From: a virus | Length of the DNA stretch: 45,978 nucleotides | Reading direction: 5' to 3' (one strand) | Virus record (IMG/VR): IMGVR_UViG_3300048921_000199 | Coordinates: 1-45,978 of that record | Shown here: piece by piece, positions 4,725-36,303 of the stretch | Layout: each line of letters starts with the position of its first letter | Position numbering within the stretch: the stretch's first letter is position 1 | Notes under the pieces: generated by a model | Told to the model about the DNA's origin: nothing | Seen by the model: the letters and a program-made list of their open reading frames with translations, nothing else | Database searches by the model: none | Position numbers and translations under genes: made by a program

Positions 4725-7461
4725 CGTCAAGGTCACTGCGGACACCAAACAGGCGACGAATGCTGAGGTCAACCTCGCCGATGTGACCGAAGAAACCACT
4801 AGCCGCATGGGCGCGTCGCTGGAAGCACTCAGCGCGCGCTCGCGTGCGGTCAGTGAGTCCGTGTCTGAGCACTTCCGGGAAATGGGCCGCTCTGCGAAAG
4901 AGTCGGCCGCGCAGGTCAACGAGAATCTGGAAAAGATCGAGGGGCGGCTTAACTCGATCACGAAATTCGCGCGCACGCTTGGCGAGGTTGCGATTGCAGG
5001 TGCTGTTGGCGATTGGGCCATCGAGCAAGTGAAGGCAATCGGCGAGTATGGCGAAGCCGTCGATAACGCATCGCAGAAAACCGGTATTGCAGCCGACGAG
5101 ATTCAAAAGCTCGGCTACGTCGGCCGCGTCACGGGCCTGTCGTTCGACGACATGCAGCACGCCATGTTTCAGCTCGCGCGGCGCATGGCAGAGGCGCGCG
5201 GCGGCTCGAAAGAAGCAGCCGAAGCGCTCGCGCTCGTCGGCGTCAAAGGCGCAGACCTCAAGAATCTCAATCTCGATCAGGTCTATCAACGCATCGCGGC
5301 GACGTTCAAAGAGCACGCGGACGGCGCGAACAAAACCGCGCTTGCGATGGAGCTGATGGGCCGCAACGGTCAGCAGCTTATCCCGACGCTGAACAAAGGC
5401 GCTGAGGGCTTCGAGGAACTTGAAGAACACGCGAAGCGCGTCGGGTACGTGCTCGATGAGGAAACGATCGCCGCGATGGCGCGACTCGCCGAGCATATGC
5501 ACCAGCTCGACGCTGATTCCAGCGCGGTCGCAAACACGTTGCGCGGTCATGTCGCTGTCGCGTTCGACGAGCTGGTAAAGACGCTCGATGACACGATCAC
5601 GTCCAGCGACGGCGCGCGCGAAGCGATCAAGTTCTTCGGCGACGTGATCAAGGGCTTGGTCACGATCGTGATCGGCGCGATTGCGGGCCTGTCGCAGCTC
5701 GACGACCTGCTTAACGGTATCTCGAAGGCTGCGGCCGATTTCAAGTTCGGCAATTTCACGAAGGCTGGTCAAGACATTGCCGAAGGCTACGCGAAGGCGA
5801 AGGGCGAAGGCGACAAGTTCCTGCAAACGTATCACCGCATTTGGGACGAGCATCAAAAGCACGAAGGCGGTGAACCCGCGCGCCGTAAGCCCGATGTTGG
5901 TGTCGTGCACAAGGGCGGCAGTCAAGCGAGCACGTCTAAGGGGCTGGCTGCTGTCGCAGCGGCCGAGGCGGCTGCTGAACTCGCGATGCTCAAAGAGAAA
6001 TTGCAGGAAGAGGCGCGCGCGAATCAAGACGCATACCGCTCGGGCGCGATCGGATTGCAGCTCTACTATCAAGAGCGGCAATCGATCGAAGAACGCGCGC
6101 TGCAAGGTGAGATGAAGGTCAAGCGGGCCGAACTCGCCGCAGTAACTGCGATCAAGCCGAAGGACGCTAACGAGGCTTTGCAGCTCAAAGCCAAGATGAT
6201 CACGATTAATGGTCAGCTCGCCGTCCTCGATCAGAAATACCACGACTCGGCGATCCGTAACGCGCGTGAGTACACGCTCGCGTTGCGTGATCAGAATGAC
6301 GCGCTGACGCGCATCGCTTTGTCGTCCAAGGTTGCGCTCGGCGGGCAGTCGATCGCACAACAGAAAGCCCTCAACGATATGCGCGTCGCGCTCGGACAGG
6401 AAAGCGCGCAGGAGTCTATCGCGGTCGAAACTGACCTCGAAAATCAGCGCTACGCTTTGCAACAAGCCGAGTTCGAAAAAGAGATTGAACTCGCGCATAA
6501 CAAGCCCGTCGAGCTGGCGAAGGTCAACGCCGATATCCTCGCGGCCGAAGCCGAGCATCAGACCAAGATGGTCGAGCTGTCGGCGAAGAGCATCCAAGAC
6601 CAGATGAAATATCAGGTTGAGGGGCGGCAGGTCATGGAGTCGTCTTTCGAAGGCTTGTTCGAAAAGATCGCCACCGGGCAAGAGACGGCGCGCAAAGCCG
6701 TGATGGATTTCTTCTCGTCGATCCAGCAAGGCATCGCGAAGGTCATGGCGAAGGGGCTGACTGAAAAACTCTTCGGCGGCGGCACGAGCGGCGGCGGTTT
6801 GCTCGACGGATTCATGACGCGCCTGTTCGGCAATCAAGGCACGAACACGACGCCGGGCGCGGGCACGACGACTGGTTCGGGCGCTGCCGAGTCCGGTATC
6901 GGCGCAGTGTTCAAGGGGCTATTCGGTGGCGGCGGTGCCTCGACGCTCGCGGGCATCAATAGTCAGCAGATGACCGTCGCCGCGATGCAGGCTGCGTCGG
7001 CCACGATCCCGACCGCGACCGTAGCCACGATGACTGTCGCGAACATGATCAGTCCGGGCGGCGGCGGGGGCGGCGGAGGTGGCGGATTCGGCGACATGCT
7101 CGGCGGTCTGTTCGGTGGCAGCTCGAACTCGTTCGGCTTCTCGCTCGCCGGAACGGGCGTTCCCGATGCGATGGCAACCGCGACGAGCGGCGCGGGCATG
7201 GCGTTGCCTGCGGGCCTCGGCGGCATCGGCGCGGGTATCGCGATGTATGACAAGGGGACGAACTATGTCCCGCAGACGCAGCTCGCCATCGTGCACCGTG
7301 GCGAAGCTGTCGTGCCTGCTGCCTTCAACCGCCAGCAAAGCGGGAACGTCGTCGTAACGAATCACTTCTCACTCGGCCAAGCGACTGACCTGCGCACGCA
7401 ATCGCAGATCGCGTCAATGGCTGCTGGCGCGCTCAACCGCGCAGCACGGAGGAACGGATGA
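4711..7461 (+). CDS. tail tape measure protein
   Basis: Sets tail length and is threaded through the tube. About 916 residues from the chosen start; GGAG at 4698-4701 is nine bases before this ATG, while an in-frame ATG at 4696 lacks a binding site. It has a helical N-terminal third, a hydrophobic stretch (DVIKGLVTIVIGAIAGL), long Gln/Glu/Ala-rich coiled coil around residues 400-640, a Gly-rich hinge with a run of Gly, and the typical C-terminal end (GTNYVPQTQLAIVHRGEAVVPA). It overlaps the frameshifted chaperone end by 14 bases and the next gene by four. Confidence 0.93.
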   Translation: MDEINVKVTADTKQATNAEVNLADVTEETTSRMGASLEALSARSRAVSESVSEHFREMGRSAKESAAQVNENLEKIEGRLNSITKFARTLGEVAIAGAVGDWAIEQVKAIGEYGEAVDNASQKTGIAADEIQKLGYVGRVTGLSFDDMQHAMFQLARRMAEARGGSKEAAEALALVGVKGADLKNLNLDQVYQRIAATFKEHADGANKTALAMELMGRNGQQLIPTLNKGAEGFEELEEHAKRVGYVLDEETIAAMARLAEHMHQLDADSSAVANTLRGHVAVAFDELVKTLDDTITSSDGAREAIKFFGDVIKGLVTIVIGAIAGLSQLDDLLNGISKAAADFKFGNFTKAGQDIAEGYAKAKGEGDKFLQTYHRIWDEHQKHEGGEPARRKPDVGVVHKGGSQASTSKGLAAVAAAEAAAELAMLKEKLQEEARANQDAYRSGAIGLQLYYQERQSIEERALQGEMKVKRAELAAVTAIKPKDANEALQLKAKMITINGQLAVLDQKYHDSAIRNAREYTLALRDQNDALTRIALSSKVALGGQSIAQQKALNDMRVALGQESAQESIAVETDLENQRYALQQAEFEKEIELAHNKPVELAKVNADILAAEAEHQTKMVELSAKSIQDQMKYQVEGRQVMESSFEGLFEKIATGQETARKAVMDFFSSIQQGIAKVMAKGLTEKLFGGGTSGGGLLDGFMTRLFGNQGTNTTPGAGTTTGSGAAESGIGAVFKGLFGGGGASTLAGINSQQMTVAAMQAASATIPTATVATMTVANMISPGGGGGGGGGGFGDMLGGLFGGSSNSFGFSLAGTGVPDAMATATSGAGMALPAGLGGIGAGIAMYDKGTNYVPQTQLAIVHRGEAVVPAAFNRQQSGNVVVTNHFSLGQATDLRTQSQIASMAAGALNRAARRNG

Positions 7462-8375
7462 CCGCGCCTTTTCTCGAAACGCCGCGATTCCCCGATGACC
7501 TCGCACGATGGGCGCTCGGCGGCGTCAACTATTCCACGATCGTGATCGGCTCGACGAGCGGGCGCGAAACGCGTAACAGCCTGTGGCAGTACGGGCGCGC
7601 GCAGTGGGATTTGCAGAACGTCGAGCGCGCCGAAGGCGTGGCCGGTAACGCCTACGTGCTGCAAACGTTGCGTAATTTCTTTCGCGTCTGCAAAGGTCAA
7701 GCGTATGGGTTTCGCATGCGCGATTACACCGATTACAGCGACGAAGGGAACGGCATCATGGGCCTGCCGGTGTCGCTGCTCGCGCCGGGCGCTGCGCCGA
7801 CTTCGCACGGCGCAGGCGTCGGCGTGTACCAGCTCTACAAGCAATATGTGGCAAGCCCGCTGTCGGACTATCGCGTGATCCAGAAGCCGCTACCGGGTAG
7901 CGTGACGATCAAGCGCAACGGTTCGACCGTACCAGGGTCTGGTGCTGGCTCGGCGTCGCTCGACACGACGACCGGCCTCGTTACGTTCACGGCTGACAGC
8001 AGCGCGTCGATCAGCAGCGCGAGCGCGGCAACCAATTGCGTGCTGACGTTCAGCGCGATCCCGAGCGGCGCGGCTGTCGGCAAGTCGGTCTATGTGTCCG
8101 GCGTCTCGGGCACGATCGGCACGGCGATCAACGGCGCTGCATGGTCGATCGTCGGCGCGACGAGCACCACGCTAACGCTCGCGGCGAACACTGCGGGCCT
8201 CGCGGGCGGCACGGGCGGCACGGCCTCGATGTTCCCGCAGGGAACGGACGCGCTGACGTGGACAGGGCTTTTCGATACGCCGTGTCGGTTCGCGACGGAC
8301 GCCTTTGAACCCGTGTTCGACGCGGGCGGCCTGTACACGTTCCAGACGCTCAAAATCGTTGAGGTGCGGCTGTGA
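7458..8375 (+). CDS. tail-tip protein, DUF2460/TIGR02217-like
   Basis: First of the four-gene tail-tip set found in many proteobacterial siphophages and gene transfer agents. 305 residues. The N-terminus has the family pattern: FLETPRFPDDLARWALGG, then SGRETRNSLWQYGRAQWDL, then LRNFFRVCKGQAYGFRMRDY. The C-terminal third contains a Ser/Ala/Gly-rich insertion (about residues 175-260) before the final LTWTGLFDTPCRF region. The start overlaps the tape measure stop (ATGA) and has GGAGG five bases upstream. Confidence 0.87.
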   Translation: MTAPFLETPRFPDDLARWALGGVNYSTIVIGSTSGRETRNSLWQYGRAQWDLQNVERAEGVAGNAYVLQTLRNFFRVCKGQAYGFRMRDYTDYSDEGNGIMGLPVSLLAPGAAPTSHGAGVGVYQLYKQYVASPLSDYRVIQKPLPGSVTIKRNGSTVPGSGAGSASLDTTTGLVTFTADSSASISSASAATNCVLTFSAIPSGAAVGKSVYVSGVSGTIGTAINGAAWSIVGATSTTLTLAANTAGLAGGTGGTASMFPQGTDALTWTGLFDTPCRFATDAFEPVFDAGGLYTFQTLKIVEVRL

Positions 8376-9478
8376 GGACGATCAGCTCTGCGCTACTCGC
8401 GCACCTGCAAGGCGACGTGCGCACGCTCGCGACGTTGTGGAAAATCACGCGTACCGATGGCGCGGTTTTCACGTTCACCGATCACGACGCACCGATCACG
8501 ATCGGCGGATACACGTACCAGTCCGCCGCGTACACGGCCAGCGCCATCGACATGACGAGCGACATGTCTGTATCGAATATGGAAGTGAACTCCGTTTTCG
8601 ACAGCGCGAGCATTACGCAATACGACCTCGACGCGGGCCTGTGGAACTCGGCCAGCGTCGTGATCATGCTGTGCAATTACATGGACGCGACGCAGGGAAC
8701 CGTGCAGATCGCGGCCGGCCTGCTCGGCGCAATCAAGATTCTGAACGGCAAGTATTCCGCCGAGCTGCGCGGCACGTCGCAGATCATGCAGCAAGGTTTC
8801 GGCGATCACTTCCAACCGAGCTGTCGAGCGACGTTCGGCGCGACCGGCGTTCGGCAGTGCAATATCCCCGGCGGGCTTGGCCCCCTCACGTTCACGGGCA
8901 CGGTGAGCGCGATTGCGATTCCGGGTGTGTCGTGGCTCGATCCGCTGCTCACGCAGGCCGGGCCGGTCGTGCCGTACACCGACACGCGCGGTCTTGTCGT
9001 GCCGACGACGGGCGCATACACGATCCAGATCGTGCCGCCTGACGGTGGCGCGTTCGTCGCAAACTCGCTCGTCAAAGACATTCAGGGGAATGTCTACACG
9101 CAGGTGTCCGGCACTCCGGGCGGCAGTCAATACAGCGTGACGAGCGGCGGTCTGTACACGTTCAACCCGTCGCAGGCCGGGCAAATGGTGTTCATCAATT
9201 TCACCTACACCATCGGCTATTTTGCCTACGGCAAGGTCAAGTGGCTGACCGGCGCGAACGCAGGCTACTCGATGGAGGTTCGCAGCTTCGCGCCGGGTGC
9301 CGTCACGATTGTCCTGCCGATGGAATATCCGATCGCGATCGGCGACACGTACACGATCACGGCCGGTTGCGACAAGCAATTCGGCACGTGCAAAAACCGC
9401 TGGAACAACGTCGTGAATTTTCGCGGTGAGCCGTACATTCCGGGCATCGATACGGTTATCCGACCGCAGGTGTCGTAA
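8372..9478 (+). CDS. tail-tip protein, DUF2163/TIGR02218-like
   Basis: Second tail-tip gene, 368 residues, starting with GTG overlapped with the previous stop and preceded by GAGG. The N-terminal region (LATLWKITRTDGAVFTFTDH) and the Cys-containing centre (PSCRATFGATGVRQCN) are family-like; the C-terminal end has CDKQFGTCKNRW-type spacing, as in the BR0599 domain. Residues about 215-281 are an insertion closely related to residues 110-174 of the tail tube protein. Confidence 0.87.
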   Translation: MRTISSALLAHLQGDVRTLATLWKITRTDGAVFTFTDHDAPITIGGYTYQSAAYTASAIDMTSDMSVSNMEVNSVFDSASITQYDLDAGLWNSASVVIMLCNYMDATQGTVQIAAGLLGAIKILNGKYSAELRGTSQIMQQGFGDHFQPSCRATFGATGVRQCNIPGGLGPLTFTGTVSAIAIPGVSWLDPLLTQAGPVVPYTDTRGLVVPTTGAYTIQIVPPDGGAFVANSLVKDIQGNVYTQVSGTPGGSQYSVTSGGLYTFNPSQAGQMVFINFTYTIGYFAYGKVKWLTGANAGYSMEVRSFAPGAVTIVLPMEYPIAIGDTYTITAGCDKQFGTCKNRWNNVVNFRGEPYIPGIDTVIRPQVS

Positions 9479-21921: not shown

Positions 21922-22131
21922 TTACATCGAGCTGAACATGACTTCCGTTTTGCCTTCCGACGTGTGACGCACGCCGACCCGACGCACCCGACCCCGCTTG
22001 ATCAGGGTGGTGATCGTCTCCGAAACCCGCTCGGCGCGGGGTGCCTTTGCTCTGATCTCGGCCGCCGTGAGAATGAATCCCGGTTTCAGCACCGACAGGA
22101 CGATTTCAGCCGTCGTATCTACCTTGCTCAC
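21922..22131 (-). CDS. small winged-helix protein
   Basis: 69 residues from a GTG start that overlaps the upstream stop (GTGA) and has GGGAGG five bases before it. FILTAAEIRAKAPRAERVSETITTLIKRGRVRRVG is a clear small winged helix. It probably regulates early genes or assists the neighbouring recombination proteins; role unknown. Confidence 0.78.
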   Translation of the reverse strand: MSKVDTTAEIVLSVLKPGFILTAAEIRAKAPRAERVSETITTLIKRGRVRRVGVRHTSEGKTEVMFSSM

Positions 22132-22547
22132 TTTGCCCTCCCGAAAATCATGCACAGGTGCCGCCAGAGGGCGCGCGCGTCCTCGACGTTGACTTGTATC
22201 GTCTCGCGCCCGAGCGGCATGAGGATCAGCATGTCGCTGACCTTGGCGTGACCACTGCGGGGCTTCTCGCGCGTCTCTACGGGTTTTTCCGGAATAACGT
22301 CTGTGACGTAGCGATAGCGGTACATGAGCCGCCCGCCGCGCGCGCCGTTCGTTTTCTCGCGCGTCAAGCACCGCAGATCGTGCAGCTTCGAGAGGACGGC
22401 AGCAGCCGCATTCGGATCCAGTTCGAGCTGCTCGGCCAGCTCAGGGCTACTGATCCCGTCCGGGTATCGCTCGCGGGTCGCGCGCAGCCACGTGAGGGCG
22501 CGGCGGGTCAACGTCGGGGTTTCTTTCGTGCTGTCGTCGTCAGTCAT
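22128..22547 (-). CDS. winged-helix DNA-binding protein
   Basis: 139 residues. The start at 22547 overlaps the upstream ATPase stop (ATGACTGA). Residues about 12-75 (LTRRALTWLRATRERYPDGISSPELAEQLELDPNAAA and on) form a winged helix. The C-terminal part is beta-like (MLILMPLGRETIQVNVEDARALW). It is tightly coupled to the recombination ATPase. Function otherwise unknown. Confidence 0.75.
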   Translation of the reverse strand: MTDDDSTKETPTLTRRALTWLRATRERYPDGISSPELAEQLELDPNAAAAVLSKLHDLRCLTREKTNGARGGRLMYRYRYVTDVIPEKPVETREKPRSGHAKVSDMLILMPLGRETIQVNVEDARALWRHLCMIFGRAK

Positions 22548-24012
22548 TGCCGCCTCCGCGCTCGTTTTCGCCCGTCTTGATCCAGTGCGACTCCATGAAA
22601 CCGCGCTCGGGCGGCGGCAAGGTGCGCAGCGTCGCGAAGAGAAACGCGGCGTCGAGTTCTTTGTGCTGCACCAGATGCTCAAGCCATTGCAGCGCGCCAT
22701 TGCGGCCCCCTGTGTCGAGCACGTCGAACTCGTCGGCCGCGACGAAACGCAGGCCGGAATAGTGGGCGATCGCGACCGCGCACGACAGATCGGCCCGCCA
22801 CTTTTCCGACTTGGACAGCAGCGCGTAGGGTCGGCCGTCGGCAGTGATCGTCAACGCGGGGGTGACTGCGCATTGCTGGAACCCGTTCTGCGCCGCGAAG
22901 CCGCGCAGCGTCGCATTGAACCGGCCGAGCACGCCCCGCAGCAGCTCGGACGGCAGCCCTTCCGGCGCGGCCAGATCAGCAACCATCGTCCATTGCTTCA
23001 CGTCGGCGTGATACCCGCGCGCGGCTTCGGTGCGCTTCTCGCCTTCGGCTGCCTGCACTTGGATTGCCTCTTGCTCGCGGCGCTGCGTCGTCAGCGCGTC
23101 GAGCACCGAACGCAGCTCGTCGGCATGCTTGCGCGCCGCGACGTATTCACCTTCGAGGATCGTGAGGTCATTGCGCGTCGCATCGGTGGGCGGCTGGTAC
23201 GCGTCGAGTCGATCGCCGCTGATCATGAGCAGGCCGCCGCAGTGGGCGCACGGCTGCGCCTGCGCCGCGCGCGCGGCGAACCGCATCCGTTCCTCGATCG
23301 CGCCAACCTCACGTTGAACGGCTTCAAGTTCGGGGCCGACCTCAGCGAGCCGGGCCACGACATGATCGAGATATTCAGGCGAGAACTCGACGACCGGCGA
23401 GGCCCAGGTATCACCCTTGCGCGACCCGTAGGTTTCGCCCGTGATCGCTTTCCACGCCGCGCGCGCCTGCTTCGCCTGATCGATCGCATACGCGTGCATC
23501 ATTTCAAAACCGCCGTGCATGAGCGTTGCGGCCTCGCTCGCGTGCATGGGGCTGACTTCGTGATCGACGAGAATTTGCTCAACGTCGGACGGCTCGATGC
23601 TCGCGTCGAGCAGGTGGAACAGCAGCATGCGGCGCTCGTCGGTCGGCACGCTCGCGAACAGTGTCGGATCGAGCACGAACGGCAGGTATTCCGGCTGCGG
23701 GATCGGCGGGCCGTCCGCCGTCGTGACGCCTTCCGGCAGCGACACGCGGCGGATGCTCCGGCCGTCGTCGTGTTCCACGTGAAGCGCGATCACCGCCTCA
23801 CGGGAACCCTCAGAGACGAGCAGGGGCCAGTCGCCCGACTTGACGACGCGCGCGCCGCCGCCGTCGCCGAGCGCGGCGAAGCGTAGCGCCTCGATCAGCG
23901 ACGACTTGCCCGCGCCGTTCGAGCCGCAGATCAGCACGACCGGCTCGGTCGGCTCAACGTCGATTCTGAATGCCCCGCAGAAATTGCGGACGGCGAGACG
24001 GGTGACTTTCAT
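22540..24012 (-). CDS. Rad50/SbcC-like ATPase with zinc hook
   Basis: 490 residues. N-terminal Walker A GSNGAGKSS (30-38), a helical middle with a single CAHC (Cys255 and Cys258) at the apex, and a C-terminal half with a signature-like LSKSEKWRADLS (399-410) and Walker B FVAADEFD ending Asp427-Glu428. This is a short version of the SMC/Rad50 plan, in which two CxxC hooks share a zinc ion. Likely role: DNA end handling or recombination with the exonuclease and RecT. No SbcD-type nuclease gene is next to it. The start overlaps the previous stop (TAATG). Confidence 0.88.
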   Translation of the reverse strand: MKVTRLAVRNFCGAFRIDVEPTEPVVLICGSNGAGKSSLIEALRFAALGDGGGARVVKSGDWPLLVSEGSREAVIALHVEHDDGRSIRRVSLPEGVTTADGPPIPQPEYLPFVLDPTLFASVPTDERRMLLFHLLDASIEPSDVEQILVDHEVSPMHASEAATLMHGGFEMMHAYAIDQAKQARAAWKAITGETYGSRKGDTWASPVVEFSPEYLDHVVARLAEVGPELEAVQREVGAIEERMRFAARAAQAQPCAHCGGLLMISGDRLDAYQPPTDATRNDLTILEGEYVAARKHADELRSVLDALTTQRREQEAIQVQAAEGEKRTEAARGYHADVKQWTMVADLAAPEGLPSELLRGVLGRFNATLRGFAAQNGFQQCAVTPALTITADGRPYALLSKSEKWRADLSCAVAIAHYSGLRFVAADEFDVLDTGGRNGALQWLEHLVQHKELDAAFLFATLRTLPPPERGFMESHWIKTGENERGGGND

Positions 24013-24524
24013 TATTCGTCCTCCCCGCTCGGCTGCGGCGGCACGCTCGGCGGCTGCTGCGAACGGCGGCGCACTTGCTCGATCAGCGAGTTCGCGTCGC
24101 CGGTTCCGTTCCCGTCGAACATGTCTTTCTGCCGAATGTCTTTCTGCGGCGCGTCCGTCCCGCCCATGTGCTGACCGGCATCGGCCACGACGATGAGGCA
24201 TGCAAGCCCTTGCGCGTGACACAGCTCCATCGCGGACGGGTCGCGCTTCGCGAGACTGAACACAGCCTCGACCTTATCGGCGAACGTAACGCGCTTGAGT
24301 TCGGCCGCGACAGTCATCCGATCACCGGCTGCGATCAGCGTGACGGCCTGCCGCACGTTGTCGGTCACGCGCTTTTTGATGCGTTCAAGAATGTCCTGCT
24401 GCTCGTCAAACCCGACCTTGATCCAGATATCAGGCAACAGGCGCAGCTCTTGAACCAGCGCCGCGATCAAGTCGCCTGCGATCGTTTCCGTCGTCCGCAC
24501 CATCACATCGTTTTCCGTCGTCAT
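24012..24524 (-). CDS. hypothetical protein of recombination operon
   Basis: 170 residues from an ATG with GGAG eight bases upstream. Helical throughout, with ILERIKKRVTDNVRQAV and a hydrophobic LACLIVVADAG strand; a polar Gln/Pro-rich tail. Its place between RecT and the ATPase suggests a partner of one of them. No known domain recognised. Confidence 0.72.
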   Translation of the reverse strand: MTTENDVMVRTTETIAGDLIAALVQELRLLPDIWIKVGFDEQQDILERIKKRVTDNVRQAVTLIAAGDRMTVAAELKRVTFADKVEAVFSLAKRDPSAMELCHAQGLACLIVVADAGQHMGGTDAPQKDIRQKDMFDGNGTGDANSLIEQVRRRSQQPPSVPPQPSGEDE

Positions 24525-24600
24525 CGCACTTTCTCCGGGCAAAGTGAGGCCCGCAGCGCGCGCCATGCGCGCCGGTCGGGCACTCGGTCAAAGAGGGGGC

Positions 24601-25638
24601 TTAGTCGATCGCGCGGTTCCGCGATCGGCTCGGGGCGGGCGCAGGCTGGAATTCAGCGAGTCGCGCCTCGTACAGATTTGCCAGCTCGACAGATTCATCG
24701 TCCGGCACTGCGCCCAGCATGTTGGCGGCTGCGTTCAGCTCGTCAACGCTGCGCGCGTTCTTCATCGCGCTTTCGATTTCGAAATACGTCGGGGGCTGCG
24801 CGTCGTTCGGCAGCGCGGGGGGCGGCCCGCCGCGCCCGGCGTCGTGGTCGGTCACGTCGCGCTCGACCGGCTGATCCGGTTCGACTGCCGTAAAGTCGCC
24901 GTCGATCGTGAAGCCTTCGCCGAGCGCCGCCTCGGCCTGCAAAGCTTGCGTCAGCTCGACCGACATAGGCAGGTACTTGAGCACTTGCAAGAGCGGGATT
25001 TTGCGCGCGTACATTTCCCAGTTCTTGAACGAGTAGTGTCGCTGGCCGACCTTGTTGTTCTTGTCGCGGTGCTTCATCACGCGCACGATCGGCCACACTT
25101 CAATGATCGGCCATTCGCTACCGTTCACGCGACCGACCGCGTAGACGTGCGTGATTTTCTTCGGGTCGTCCTCGCCGTGCGGCCGGTGCGTGATGAAAGG
25201 CTTATCGCCCAGCGCATAGTCGAACTCGTCGCCTTCGAACACTGCGCCCGTCCACGCCGACGCGCGGCCCGCGCGCGCCACCAGATCGACCAGCCCGCGC
25301 CAGCCCGGAATGAACTGCGCTTCGTGCACGCCCTTTTGCGTGTTGAAGAACGGGACGAGATACCCCTGTCCGAGCACGCCGATTTCGAGGCCGAGCTGCG
25401 ACGATTTGATGACCTCGCCGAACACGCTGCGAAGCGTGCATTTCCGCAGGTCAGGGTTCTGGCTGAGGCTCGTCAACGCAAGGCGCGTGATCCGATCGCT
25501 GTTCAGATGCTTCGGCAGCGCCATGCGGAGCTGGTCGGCGTTCTTCTTGAAGAACGCTTCAACCTCCGTGAGCGAGTCAGCCGTGCGGACGGCGCGCGAC
25601 TTCTCGTCGCTCTGTTTCAGCTCTTGAATATTCGGCAT
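24601..25638 (-). CDS. recT: RecT-like single-strand annealing protein
   Basis: Anneals complementary single strands made by the exonuclease. 345 residues. The family core is clear: LTSLSQNPDLRKCTLRSVF, SSQLGLEIGVLGQGYLVPF, HEAQFIPGWRGLVDLVARAG, and WPIIEVWPIVRVMKHRD. A long acidic, proline-rich C-terminal tail follows. The start is set by GGAG eight bases before the ATG. Confidence 0.94.
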   Translation of the reverse strand: MPNIQELKQSDEKSRAVRTADSLTEVEAFFKKNADQLRMALPKHLNSDRITRLALTSLSQNPDLRKCTLRSVFGEVIKSSQLGLEIGVLGQGYLVPFFNTQKGVHEAQFIPGWRGLVDLVARAGRASAWTGAVFEGDEFDYALGDKPFITHRPHGEDDPKKITHVYAVGRVNGSEWPIIEVWPIVRVMKHRDKNNKVGQRHYSFKNWEMYARKIPLLQVLKYLPMSVELTQALQAEAALGEGFTIDGDFTAVEPDQPVERDVTDHDAGRGGPPPALPNDAQPPTYFEIESAMKNARSVDELNAAANMLGAVPDDESVELANLYEARLAEFQPAPAPSRSRNRAID

Positions 25639-25651
25639 CGTTTTATCTCCG

Positions 25652-25837
25652 TCAATCGTTCCACGTCGCAGGATCGACCGCCTCTGCGGTGCCCCAAGTG
25701 CAGGGGCCGCACATACGGCCGTGATAGACCAGCTTGCCGTTGCGCCAGCCGTCAACCGTGGGCGATTCGCCGCACTGGATGCACTCGCCGTCATAGTCGG
25801 GCAACCACTGATCCACTTTCGTTACTTCGTCGTCCAT
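25652..25837 (-). CDS. small zinc-ribbon protein
   Basis: 61 residues with two Cys pairs, CIQC (about 19-22) and CGPC (about 43-46), the spacing of a single zinc ribbon. GAGG lies five bases before the ATG. Small proteins of this kind often accompany recombination genes; partner unknown. Confidence 0.8.
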   Translation of the reverse strand: MDDEVTKVDQWLPDYDGECIQCGESPTVDGWRNGKLVYHGRMCGPCTWGTAEAVDPATWND

Positions 25838-26025
25838 GTTTTCCTCGCGAGAAATTGCGCTACGGCTTCGTCCACTTCGGCCTTGCTGAACGCTGCGGGC
25901 GGGCGCTTCGTTTTCTTCGGCGTGGCCTTGACGCCGACCTCACCGCTCCCCCACTTCACTTGCGCGTTACGCTCGCGCGTCGGCTTCGCCGCGACCAAAT
26001 CGGCGTCGTCGTCCGTCTCGTTCAT
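25822..26025 (-). CDS. small basic protein of recombination operon
   Basis: 67 residues; the start overlaps the exonuclease stop (ATGA). Lys/Pro-rich middle (KATPKKTKRPPAAFSKAEVDEAV), likely unstructured with a short C-terminal helix. It may bind DNA or a partner protein; no family recognised. Confidence 0.75.
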   Translation of the reverse strand: MNETDDDADLVAAKPTRERNAQVKWGSGEVGVKATPKKTKRPPAAFSKAEVDEAVAQFLARKTWTTK

Positions 26026-26831
26026 TCGTGGAAAATGCAGTGATCCCAACGGGCGCAATACTTCGGCGAACACAGCATCGAGCGCGGGTTAGGCGGGAAA
26101 AGGCCCGTGCGGAACATTTCGGCGGCGTACTCAATCAGCCCCTTCGTGTCCTCGGTGCCGGTCATGACCTTGCGGGCGTCGAACATCGGCGAGATTGCAA
26201 CGCGCGGATTGGATGAAGTCATGAGGCCGACAATCTGCGCGCCGTCGCTGCGCTGGCCCGTCGTGTGATCGTCGAGCAATTGATACGTGCCGCACTGCGC
26301 CGCGTGACCCTTCGTCGTGACGACGCCGCCGACGATCGCACGCTCACCGCTCTTGAGGTCAACGATGGCGCGCTTGCCGCTGTCGCGCTTGACGCGCGCA
26401 CGGTCCATCGTCCCGGTGAGCTGCACAATCACGCCCCCGCCGCAGTCGATATCGAGCGGCGTGAACGGCGCTTCAACCGACTCGTATTGCATCTTGGGGG
26501 CGATCGTCGTGCAGTATTTCGTGTGCAGGGTCAACCCGATCCGCTCGGCCTGCCGCACGGTCAGCTCGTCCTGCGTGTAATCCACATCGTATTCCGGGTG
26601 TTTCAGCTTCGCGATCAGCACGTCGGCCGCGTCGAGCGGCTTGATAGCGTTGCCGTCGATCAGCGCTTGATCGAACACGGCAGTGCTCGCATGGATCGCA
26701 GTGCCGAGCGCGGCCCGCAGGCCGACCGCTTTCCGGTGCTGGTTCAGGACTTCGTATTCCCACTTGTAGGCGCAGTCAAAGAGCGCCCCCCAAGAGGAAG
26801 CACGAACCTTAGTTCGACTAATTACGGTCAT
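26022..26831 (-). CDS. PD-(D/E)XK exonuclease with Fe-S-type cysteines
   Basis: 269 residues, RecB/Cas4 family. Motifs: His47 in GTAIHAS, Asp143 in LTGTMDR, Asp158-Leu-Lys160 in IVDLKSG, and Gln184 in TYQLL. Cys20 near the start and Cys254, Cys259, Cys265 at the end are placed like the four ligands of the 4Fe-4S cluster of AddB and Cas4, though the spacing of the last three (x4, x5) differs from the usual x2, x5. Paired with RecT it should resect ends for recombination. Confidence 0.9.
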   Translation of the reverse strand: MTVISRTKVRASSWGALFDCAYKWEYEVLNQHRKAVGLRAALGTAIHASTAVFDQALIDGNAIKPLDAADVLIAKLKHPEYDVDYTQDELTVRQAERIGLTLHTKYCTTIAPKMQYESVEAPFTPLDIDCGGGVIVQLTGTMDRARVKRDSGKRAIVDLKSGERAIVGGVVTTKGHAAQCGTYQLLDDHTTGQRSDGAQIVGLMTSSNPRVAISPMFDARKVMTGTEDTKGLIEYAAEMFRTGLFPPNPRSMLCSPKYCARWDHCIFHE

Positions 26832-28745: not shown

Positions 28746-29287
28746 TCGAGGCCGACCGTCAAGACTTCGTCGCGGCGCTGCGGAGCGTTTTCGAGACGTA
28801 CAGCAAGCCGCTACCGACCAAGCCCGTAGCGGAGCTGTGGTGGCGCACGCTGCTGCCGTTCCCCCCCGACGTGATCGCCGATGCGTTCGAGCAGCATATC
28901 GGCGCGAGCGGGTACGCGCCCGTGCCATCGGACATTCGCGCGCTTTGCATCCAAGCGCGAAAGCATCAGGTTGACGAGCGCGCCGCGCGCCTCACGTACA
29001 CGCCGGAACGGGATGCCGAGCTGGTCGAGCGCGGACTCGACACGCTGCGCGCGATCGTCGCGCCGTTGACGAACAAGCCCGGCGTGGAATGGGCGTTCAA
29101 GCTGCTCGACCGTGGCACGTCGGCGAGCGGTGCGCCCCTGAGCAACGAAATTGCCCGTGTGGCTGGTGACGCGGTTCTCAGCGGGGCTGGTCGAGCGTTG
29201 ATCGACGGGATACGCGACGACGAGCTGCGGAGACGCTACAGGGCCATTTATCGAAACGCCCAGCGACAACGAACGGAGGGGGCATGA
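28742..29287 (+). CDS. replicative helicase loader-like protein
   Basis: 181 residues, overlapping both neighbours by four bases (ATGA). The N-terminal 70 residues (FVAALRSVFETYSKPLPTKPVAELWWRTLLPF, DAFEQHI, YAPVPSDIRAL) resemble loader/inhibitor proteins of the G39P/lambda P functional class that bring the host helicase to the initiator. The rest is helical. The call depends on this pattern and the position between initiator and RusA. Confidence 0.7.
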   Translation: MIEADRQDFVAALRSVFETYSKPLPTKPVAELWWRTLLPFPPDVIADAFEQHIGASGYAPVPSDIRALCIQARKHQVDERAARLTYTPERDAELVERGLDTLRAIVAPLTNKPGVEWAFKLLDRGTSASGAPLSNEIARVAGDAVLSGAGRALIDGIRDDELRRRYRAIYRNAQRQRTEGA

Positions 29288-29742
29288 GCACGATCGACGA
29301 AGAGAAGCGCACGGGGTTCGCGGTCAGCTTCGTGATTCCGGGCGCACCTGTCCCGAAGGGACGAGCGCGCGTGACCCGGTTCGGCACGCATACGCCGAAG
29401 CGCACGCGCGCATACGAGCACGACGTGCGATTGCTGGCCCGCGCTGCCGTCGGCATGGCGTCTCCGTACGAGGGGGCGTTGCATCTCGACCTCATCGCGT
29501 ATCTGCCGATCGCGAAGTCGTGGCCGAAATGGAAGCAGGCAGCGGCGCGCGCAGGCACATTGCAGCCGATCAGCAAACCAGACCTGGACAATATCGAGAA
29601 AGCCGTGACGGACGCATGCAACGGCGTGCTATACGCCGACGACGGACAGATCGTCTCTGCATGCAAGGCGAAGCGGTACAGCGATAACCCGCACCTGTGG
29701 GTGCGCATTGCGTCGATCGACGTTGAGGTGTGCGATGAGTGA
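29284..29742 (+). CDS. rusA: RusA-like Holliday junction resolvase
   Basis: Cuts four-way junctions arising in phage recombination and replication. 152 residues. The RusA pattern is clear: FVIPGAPVPKGRARVT at the N-terminus and KPDLDNIEKAVTDACNGVLYADD-type core with Asp100, Asp102 and Asp119/120 in the places of the catalytic aspartates. It overlaps the previous gene (ATGA). Confidence 0.93.
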   Translation: MSTIDEEKRTGFAVSFVIPGAPVPKGRARVTRFGTHTPKRTRAYEHDVRLLARAAVGMASPYEGALHLDLIAYLPIAKSWPKWKQAAARAGTLQPISKPDLDNIEKAVTDACNGVLYADDGQIVSACKAKRYSDNPHLWVRIASIDVEVCDE

Positions 29743-30340: not shown

Positions 30341-30482
30341 AGTCGTGCATGCTGCCTGCGATCCATGCGGTGAGGAAAAATTCGTATGGCACGGGCACCG
30401 CGATTCCGTACTTCGCGAAGTCAGTTTGTTCCCATCCCGCACGGTACGCGCAATAGTTGAGAAACAGATCAGTCGAGGTCAT
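30306..30482 (-). CDS. small hypothetical protein
   Basis: 58 residues; its ATG lies inside the end of the acetyltransferase gene (14-base overlap), the coupling seen throughout this operon. The sequence is aromatic-rich (LFLNYCAYRAGWEQTDFAKYG, then YEFFLTAWIAGSM). It overlaps the convergent gene's 3' end. No function recognised. Confidence 0.62.
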   Translation of the reverse strand: MTSTDLFLNYCAYRAGWEQTDFAKYGIAVPVPYEFFLTAWIAGSMHDFTQPTPRDSDE

Positions 30483-30831
30483 GGGGCGTCAGCGGCTTGA
30501 ACATGCACAGATCAGCGGGCGCGCGCTCGGGCACGACGCGATAGCCGCGCCTGCCGAGCATGTCGTGCAGGATCGGATTGCAGATGTTCTCGACATACAC
30601 GCCATCGAGTTCGAGCATACGTGCAGCCTCTTCGCACTCGATGAGCATTCGCGAGAACAGGCCCATGCGCCGATAGCTCTCATGCACCTCGACGTTTGCG
30701 ATATCGAGCGTAGCGTGCAGACTGCCATCGACCACGCGGTTAGCGCGGCGCACGTACAGCGTGGCAATCATCGCGTCGAAAAAAACGCGATGCACTTCGG
30801 CTAGTTGATCAGCGATCCGCTTGGCGTACAT
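30469..30831 (-). CDS. GNAT-family acetyltransferase
   Basis: 120 residues from the ATG at the downstream end of the TTGATG start region. The GNAT core is visible: VDGSLHATLDIANVEVHESYRRMGLFSRML carries the acetyl-CoA loop (R-R-M-G-L-F-S, like R/QxxGxG/A), followed by LELDGVYVENICNPILHDMLGRRGYRVV. The substrate is unknown. It is shorter than most GNAT proteins because the N-terminal strand region is reduced. Confidence 0.82.
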   Translation of the reverse strand: MYAKRIADQLAEVHRVFFDAMIATLYVRRANRVVDGSLHATLDIANVEVHESYRRMGLFSRMLIECEEAARMLELDGVYVENICNPILHDMLGRRGYRVVPERAPADLCMFKPLTPHDLD

Positions 30832-31174
30832 CAATCGCCCCCGTGCATCGGTCGATCAGGCCGAGCAAATAGCCGACGTTAAATTGTAGCGTCGGCACGT
30901 CGTGAGCATCGCCGCCCTTGCCAGATTTCATCGCGCGCACGAATGCGTCCTCGCGCAGTACATAGCGGTCAGCCATGACGCGCGCAGCGAGTTCGGGCAG
31001 ATCGTGCCAGCTATGCCCGGTTCCCGGTTTCGGATCGCCGCGCAGCGCGTTCGCGACGCCAGTTAGCAGCATCGCAAGGCGTTCGTTCAACGCATGCACT
31101 TCGCCAAGGTCACGCATAGCTTCGTCGCGCTGCGCCTGAAGTTTTGCAATCAATGCTTCGTTGTCGTCCGTCAT
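30809..31174 (-). CDS. coiled-coil hypothetical protein
   Basis: 121 residues; the start at 31174 is fixed by a four-base overlap (ATGA) with the upstream stop. An N-terminal coiled coil (ALIAKLQAQRDEAMRDLGEVHALNERLAMLL) is followed by a mixed region. Such proteins occur in phage accessory operons; role unknown. Confidence 0.78.
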   Translation of the reverse strand: MTDDNEALIAKLQAQRDEAMRDLGEVHALNERLAMLLTGVANALRGDPKPGTGHSWHDLPELAARVMADRYVLREDAFVRAMKSGKGGDAHDVPTLQFNVGYLLGLIDRCTGAIDVRQADR

Positions 31175-35811: not shown

Positions 35812-36303
35812 ATGCTCGCTGTCACGTATCGCTCGATCGACGAGCTGATCCCGTATGCCCGGAACAGCCGCACGCACTCGGACGCGCAGATCGCGCAGAT
35901 TGCTGCGAGCCTGCGCGAGTTCGGCTGGACGAATCCGGTGTTGATCGATGACGAGTGCAACGTGATTGCCGGTCACGGTCGCCTGCTCGGCGCACGCAAG
36001 CTCGGGCAAACCGAAGTGCCGACGATCAGCCTGTCGCACCTGAGCGAGACGCAGCGCCGCGCGTATGTGATCGCCGACAACAAGCTTGCCGAGCTGGCCG
36101 GATGGGATACCGAACTTCTCGCGCTCGAACTCGGCGAGCTGAACGAAACATTCGACGTGTCGCTACTCGGCTTCGCCCCCGAAGAGGTTGCCGATTTGCT
36201 GGTCGGGCCGACGTTCGGCCCGGCCGACGCAGACAGCCAAGGCAAGCTTGACGAGAAAGCGAAGTGCACGTGTCCGAACTGCGGCCATGAATTCACGCGT
36301 TGA
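35812..36303 (+). CDS. ParB-like domain protein with C-terminal zinc knuckle
   Basis: 163 residues. Residues 1-90 are a ParB/Srx-type domain (ELIPYARNSRTHSDAQIAQIA, VIAGHGRLLGARKLG with the AGHGR box at 53-57, RRAYVIADNKLAEL). The end carries CTCPNCGHEF, a small Cys cluster. In phages such domains often sit beside DNA-modifying enzymes, as here. GGAG lies six bases before the ATG. It overlaps the Mom-like gene by 17 bases, so the two are probably co-translated. Whether it binds or cuts DNA or modifies the partner's activity is unknown. Confidence 0.85.
   Translation: MLAVTYRSIDELIPYARNSRTHSDAQIAQIAASLREFGWTNPVLIDDECNVIAGHGRLLGARKLGQTEVPTISLSHLSETQRRAYVIADNKLAELAGWDTELLALELGELNETFDVSLLGFAPEEVADLLVGPTFGPADADSQGKLDEKAKCTCPNCGHEFTR

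Follow-up and report, generated by a model that had tools for sequence, protein, structure and literature searches.

A Rad50-like ATPase, encoded without Mre11, as a regular member of phage operons with exchangeable exonucleases and annealing proteins

The IMG/VR virus record IMGVR_UViG_3300048921_000199, analysed here over its full 45,978 bases (the window), carries an operon of seven minus-strand genes that runs from 26831 down to 22128, with overlaps or short gaps between neighbours, and that encodes a PD-(D/E)XK exonuclease, a RecT single-strand annealing protein (SSAP) and a compact Rad50-like ABC ATPase. Comparison of phage and prophage loci shows that ATPases of this family are a regular part of exonuclease/annealase modules, within which the exonuclease and the annealing protein are both exchangeable, no Mre11-type nuclease is encoded, and the catalytic motifs of the ATPase are non-canonical family-wide. 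We consider it an evenly balanced proposition that the operon is a homologous-recombination module of the lambda Red/RecET kind, belonging to a temperate tailed phage and provided with a third standing member; we are similarly divided as to whether the ATPase acts in such modules as a general end clamp, serving whichever exonuclease/annealase pair the phage carries.

Association of the ATPase with exonuclease and annealing protein genes

Loci anchored on the exonuclease were gathered from IMG/VR and from GTDB-type contigs; thinning at 95% identity left 85 non-redundant loci with at least 5 kb of downstream sequence, and a same-strand ATPase gene lies downstream in 81 of these; the other four are L157, L158 and L163, with an SSAP near an integrase, and L146, where the ATPase has decayed. 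An ATPase search that was independent of the exonuclease, covering approximately 1,160 genomes of two orders and one class (two centre genomes being left out), gave 12 intact ATPase-anchored prophage loci. All 12 have an exonuclease upstream, of the window type in eight and of the YqaJ/RecE type in four, and a recognised annealing protein is present in 11, which identifies the ATPase as a regular module part. With eight of the 12 carrying the window type, the ATPase is not found mostly apart from this exonuclease, in keeping with the pairing of the two genes in a first-pass annotation of this DNA.

The operon also recurs in named phages and in dozens of prophages, and hence is not a chance arrangement. 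It is conserved in phi297, AUS531phi, P54, Magia, BgManors32, CF418P1 and PfAn1, and the exonucleases of Pseudomonas phi297, Burkholderia Magia, BgManors32 and Achromobacter CF418P1 display 54-57% identity to that of the window. The window itself is a tailed phage, coding in addition for portal, terminase, head-tail, tail, RusA and replication-initiation-like genes; since its relatives are found in prophages, it is probably temperate, and since a megablast search of 23 kb of the window against phages returned no match, it has no close named relative. As a separate observation, the operon strand of Bordetella phage PBb001 (PV564983.1 20267-31829, L012) bears no annotated genes, yet it holds intact open reading frames (ORFs) for the exonuclease, the SSAP position and the ATPase.

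Exchange of exonuclease and annealing protein types

Exonuclease type was followed on a tree of 93 ATPases, eight rows of which have the YqaJ type; this is a quick tree with some long branches, on which recent swaps are starred and close. The type changes at least six times, and its clustering is no stronger than that of shuffled labels (115 of 500 shuffles were as low). The ATPases of D14H, which carries a YqaJ/RecE exonuclease, and of phi297, which carries a Cas4-like one, are approximately 95% identical, and similar swaps are seen in BR153a, L014 and L109. The annealing protein type changes even more often than the exonuclease type, 18 times on the same tree. As both components are exchanged, the constant element is not a protein partner but the DNA substrate together with the pathway.

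These data bear directly on the suggestion, made in the first-pass annotation, that the Cas4-like exonuclease stands in for Mre11 as the nuclease subunit, giving a dedicated two-protein resection machine of the Rad50 type. The tight linkage (81 of 85 loci), the lack of Mre11 and a conserved surface at the base of the ATPase coil, where Mre11 binds Rad50, are all in line with such a machine; however, the exonuclease gives way to the YqaJ type on each of the occasions counted above, once with the ATPase hardly altered, and the YqaJ type occupies four of the 12 independently located ATPase loci. It would be surprising if a dedicated interface between the ATPase and a single exonuclease persisted through such swaps. 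The zinc hook, which formed part of the same argument, is not general either, the CxxC motif being missing from 43 of the 93 ATPases, with at least ten changes on the tree. The link between exonuclease and ATPase is thus real, but this particular mechanism is not favoured, and we regard it as unlikely.

Absence of Mre11 and status of host SbcD

No Metallophos (PF00149) protein was detected in any of 61 phage records carrying the ATPase or the exonuclease, many of which are possibly fragments, with 11 named phages being searched whole and 14 of 14 control genomes positive; the whole window record is likewise devoid of one. The absence of Mre11/SbcD remarked upon in the first-pass annotation is therefore upheld, and the survey that it recommended, of whether exonuclease and ATPase co-occur in phages without SbcD, has a positive outcome.

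The missing nuclease could be supplied by the host, with the ATPase recruiting the bacterial SbcD/Mre11, an alternative that had also been raised at the outset. SbcD does occur in a few carriers, Pseudomonas aeruginosa PA7 among them, but of 24 carrier bacterial genomes no more than six have it above the curated cut-off, which makes an obligatory host partner unlikely. The other 18 carriers, Burkholderia included, have none above that cut-off, and the weak matches may be other metallophosphatases, such as those of the YhaO type; moreover, the ABC motifs that are needed in the Mre11-Rad50 cycle are altered throughout the ATPase family. Recruitment of a host nuclease is accordingly the explanation to which we give very little credence. 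Weak partial SbcD matches, none above the curated cut-off, occur in many Burkholderiales carrier genomes, among them G053, G054 and G058 (Burkholderia).

Fold and ABC site of the Rad50-like ATPase

The ATPase gene (22540..24012) begins at the ATG at 24012 (MKVTRL), rather than with the longer GTG ORF, and encodes 490 amino acids (aa) that match AAA_23 (E 2.9e-10) and the 'SbcC-like' phrog_77 (E 9e-19). An AlphaFold2 model, based on a 56-row alignment of IMG/VR and genome loci, has a mean predicted local distance difference test score (pLDDT) of 94, and Foldseek places Thermotoga maritima Rad50 first among its matches (3qf7, E 2.4e-12, prob 1.00), followed by other Rad50, SMC and RecF heads; according to the model, the ATPase has a Rad50-type ABC fold. 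The single CxxC (CAHC, 255-258) lies in a small hairpin between modelled coil helices 212-250 and 280-348, so that the coil is very short. A compact Rad50/SbcC-like ATPase with one CxxC hook at the coil tip, as had been read from the sequence, is thus what the model displays. The compact type, of 480-491 aa, is shared by the window, L036-L037 and L038-L040, whereas ATPases elsewhere in the family have 565-625 aa. No curated NCBIfam SbcC/Rad50 cut-off is reached (32.3 bits for TIGR00618, against a required 478.5, and Rad50 models are also far below), and the protein is consequently not filed as SbcC.

Weak PADLOC matches to the PtuA, GajA, LmuB and DndD models extend over the P-loop region, and could indicate that a gene for defence or superinfection exclusion (PtuA/OLD/Lamassu-like) sits in the operon by chance. 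These matches, however, correspond to the N-lobe common to Rad50-type proteins, the product lacks an effector domain, and the gene holds a constant position within a co-directional recombination operon, all of which renders a defence function improbable.

In ABC ATPases, the residue that follows the Walker-B aspartate is the catalytic glutamate. Among the 93 family members the aspartate is invariant, and the next residue is Arg in 90, Glu in two (the window and L140) and Gly in one; in addition, the family signature reads LSESE in place of LSGGE, and the H-loop histidine is replaced (TLK). When the family is aligned with T. maritima Rad50 by HMMER, LSGGE...DEGFSSLD of the latter is set against LSESE...DR-FDVLD of the family, a comparison in which the second segment scores below zero and the motif was matched by eye; an hhalign comparison with E. 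coli SbcC was confined to the N-lobe, and the C-lobe comparison was therefore left to HMMER. The window ATPase (Walker A GSNGAGKSS, signature LSKSE, Walker B ADE, H-loop TLR) also lacks the full canonical set, having neither LSGGE nor the H-loop histidine, but it keeps the Walker-B glutamate. The codon for this residue is GAG in the window and CGA in its nearest relative, L036, a difference of more than one base and hence not attributable to one sequencing error. No intact family sequence has lost the Walker A lysine, and this holds also for a clade with a Gly-to-Ala change (GxNGAAKSS; L041, L042, L043, L045, L047, L117 and L147) that was examined separately from the main motif set.

Distant Rad50-like ATPases that adjoin SSAP and exonuclease genes in other phage groups have D-G (L025, L026 and L031), a degenerate motif (L030) or D-A (Bordetella PY223) at Walker B, whereas those of the Metallophos-bearing records L028, L029 and L035 keep both the Walker-B glutamate and the H-loop histidine; this small, hand-read control set makes the comparison a lead rather than a test. 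Judged from the sequences, the family-wide catalytic changes would fit a clamp better than a motor, and ATP hydrolysis may be slow or altered. It is of note that the ATPases of L025, L026 and L031, hookless and of approximately 477 aa, have as their neighbour a PD-(D/E)XK-like protein bearing C-terminal cysteines, and that in L026 and L031 a RecT-like protein lies between the two.

Proposed mechanism

The genes for exonuclease and annealing protein are neighbours in the window and in its relatives, as they are in lambda Red and RecET. In the general end clamp that we prefer, the PD-(D/E)XK exonuclease would resect double-stranded DNA ends, presumably 5' to 3' as judged from RecE, lambda Exo and Che9c gp60, and RecT would coat the exposed strand and then anneal it. 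The Rad50-like ATPase would act on the same ends as an ATP-dependent clamp, with two heads closing around the duplex upon ATP binding; where a hook is present, the CxxC tips could join two coils via zinc and so hold the ends together. Such an ATPase would do without Mre11 or any nuclease dedicated to it, serving any exonuclease/annealase pair present, and probably holds the ends, admits the exonuclease and bars RecBCD and other host nucleases.

The exonuclease-annealase pair Exo-Erf of P. aeruginosa phage D3 and Mu-Gam-type end binders were reported to block the loading of RecBCD at ends (PMC12407980), and the occupation of ends therefore matters in these hosts. The same precedent lends itself to a narrower role, in which the ATPase would be a Gam-like shield of phage DNA ends against RecBCD or other end-directed defences, comparable to gam in exo-bet-gam. 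The position of its gene after exonuclease and annealase and its independence of exonuclease type are both consistent with this role; against it, no resemblance to the Gam proteins of lambda or Mu came to light, although no search was aimed at one. We assign this role a minor but appreciable likelihood.

Several observations weigh against the general clamp. L157, L158, L163 and also L063 have an exonuclease and an SSAP without the ATPase, and that of L146 has decayed, so that the ATPase is not strictly essential; gene linkage in phages, furthermore, can arise through block inheritance. The most conserved family-specific surface of the ATPase is found where the coil begins, at its base (WxxxTGExYG...W, 187-203; GIP, 350-354), which in Rad50 is the docking site of Mre11, and could be the site for a further protein partner. 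Lastly, the window ATPase, like that of L140, has the canonical Walker-B D-E, and to call it hydrolysis-impaired is not warranted.

Exonuclease and RecT

The 269-aa exonuclease (26022..26831), which is RecB/Cas4-like, matches PDDEXK_1 (PF12705; E 6.8e-16, 59.4 bits, cut-off 22) and the phrog_69 'exonuclease' family (E 1.1e-13); a profile search matched no solved structure. Its catalytic residues H47, D143, D158, K160, Q179 and Y183 (H, D, DxK, QxxxY) are invariant in 99 of 99 non-redundant relatives, as are C254, C259 and C265, and C20 is kept in 98, although the counts for C20 and H47, but not those for the other residues, are biased by the inclusion of both positions in the search patterns. 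The cysteines are thus arranged as one at the N-terminus and a C-terminal C-x4-C-x5-C, whereas the spacing in Cas4 and AddB, whose cysteines bind a 4Fe-4S cluster, is C-x2-C-x5-C. The description of these residues as AddB/Cas4-like therefore agrees with the presence of four conserved cysteines, while their spacing is different, and an iron-sulfur cluster in the exonuclease is for this reason hypothetical.

The 345-aa RecT (24601..25638), preceded by a GGAG ribosome-binding site upstream of its ATG, was correctly recognised in the first-pass annotation: it is a plain member of the RecT family, above the cut-offs of both PF03837 (E 5.8e-29, 101.5 bits, cut-off 24) and TIGR00616 (143 bits, cut-off 52.65), and also matches phrog_148. 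In Bordetella phages the annealing position is taken by phrog_3657, which makes a third combination; in phage PY223 this protein is encoded between exonuclease and ATPase, at L004:3804-4898. An unclassified protein (L106, ORF 7198-8706) is found in the corresponding position of another locus; both it and phrog_3657 may be unrecognised single-strand annealing proteins.

Other genes of the operon and window

Two small genes separate exonuclease and RecT. The first encodes a protein of approximately 67 aa beginning with MNETDD (25822..26025, with a longer GTG start possible at 26073), which is defined as an ORF only and is recognisable in the nearest relatives, L036 and L037; the second encodes a 61-aa protein (25652..25837) with two CxxC pairs (CIQC and CGPC), which has no family match and is likely, from this motif pattern, to be a zinc ribbon. 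At the other end of the operon, a gene that shares 8 bases with the end of the ATPase gene (22128..22547) encodes a 139-aa protein, assigned as winged-helix on weak MarR_2/DnaD-like matches, with a match to phrog_18765 (E 2e-4); the protein is also present in L036 and L037, and phages of the Magia type have other, unrelated-looking winged helix-turn-helix proteins in its place. The small zinc-type and winged-helix proteins announced for this region are thus located along with the exonuclease, RecT and hook ATPase, and the coordinates and identifications given for all of them are correct.

Missing from that list was the gene at 24012..24524, between RecT and the ATPase. Its 169/170-aa product is 35% identical to a BR153a protein and matches phrog_6576, an 'FtsK-like' protein of Pseudomonas phages (E 2.4e-29), of which it represents the N-terminal domain without the FtsK-gamma winged helix; its model (pLDDT 72) has no PDB match. 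An 'FtsK translocase' as a member of the operon was rejected, since the proteins in question have only the gamma winged helix and lack a motor domain. The Pseudomonas phage proteins annotated as 'DNA translocase FtsK' consist of an N-terminal domain of approximately 140 aa followed by an FtsK-gamma winged helix (L006:4026-4997, phi297; L010:5065-5997, P54), and the N-terminal domain is followed by a conserved glutamine motif (RQKDMF or DQNPLDL) that resembles a sliding-clamp-binding peptide. Elsewhere, the window encodes a RusA-like resolvase (29284-29742), a ParB-like partition/nuclease protein (35812-36303) and a small GNAT-like protein (30469-30834, minus strand).

Significance and comparison with known systems

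Phages that carry the operon are already in GenBank, with their ATPases annotated as hypothetical protein, AAA ATPase, chromosome segregation protein or SbcC-like. A search of the open-licence literature gave no account of the module as a unit, of the exchange of exonucleases or of the altered ABC site; it gave one remark on gene neighbours, in which SMC and uncharacterised AAA ATPases are listed beside recT/redbeta in phages of Firmicutes (PMC8093625). What is new here is the degenerate ABC site across the ATPase family. Red and RecET modules have been treated, in descriptions as in applications, as two-protein systems, to which lambda adds Gam. Should a Rad50-like clamp prove to be a regular third member, recombineering in Pseudomonas and Burkholderia, the native hosts, could benefit from its being expressed alongside. 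A Rad50 relative that is free of Mre11, has altered catalytic residues and occurs with or without a hook would, if confirmed, help to tell the parts of Rad50 that are needed to clamp DNA from those that only drive Mre11.

The window operon has in common with RecET of the Rac prophage, lambda Red and Che9c gp60-gp61 the pair of exonuclease and single-strand annealing protein. None of these three is known to have a Rad50-like ATPase, and lambda has gam instead (PMC3784561). With Mre11-Rad50, SbcCD and T4 gp46-gp47, the ATPase family shares the ABC ATPase heads and coil and, in part of its members, the CxxC hook; it differs from them in its short coil, its LSESE/LSKSE signature and the lack of an Mre11-type nuclease. 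Among named phages, phi297 (NC_016762.1), Magia (NC_070954.1), BgManors32 and Achromobacter CF418P1 display the same order of exonuclease, annealase and ATPase, also without Mre11, but their ATPases are longer (580-594 aa, against 490 aa), with a longer coil and a Walker-B D-R where the window has D-E; phi297, Magia and BgManors32 have phrog_561 annealing proteins in place of RecT, and the CF418P1 ATPase lacks the CxxC hook found in the window.

In the Firmicutes sets (PMC8093625), and in L025, L026 and L031, which show such a set, an SMC/Rad50-type or uncharacterised ATPase lies, as in the window, beside recT and a PD-(D/E)XK exonuclease, but ATPases of the L025/L026/L031 type are very distant from that of the window (E 1e-12 to 1e-15), hookless, and D-G at Walker B. 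Tentatively, and with rather more doubt than confidence, it may be proposed that phage modules of Gram-negative and Gram-positive hosts share an Mre11-free, Rad50-like ATP-binding end clamp, from whose ABC site the catalytic glutamate and the H-loop histidine have disappeared more than once, and which works with interchangeable exonucleases and constitutes a separate functional class of Rad50-like proteins.

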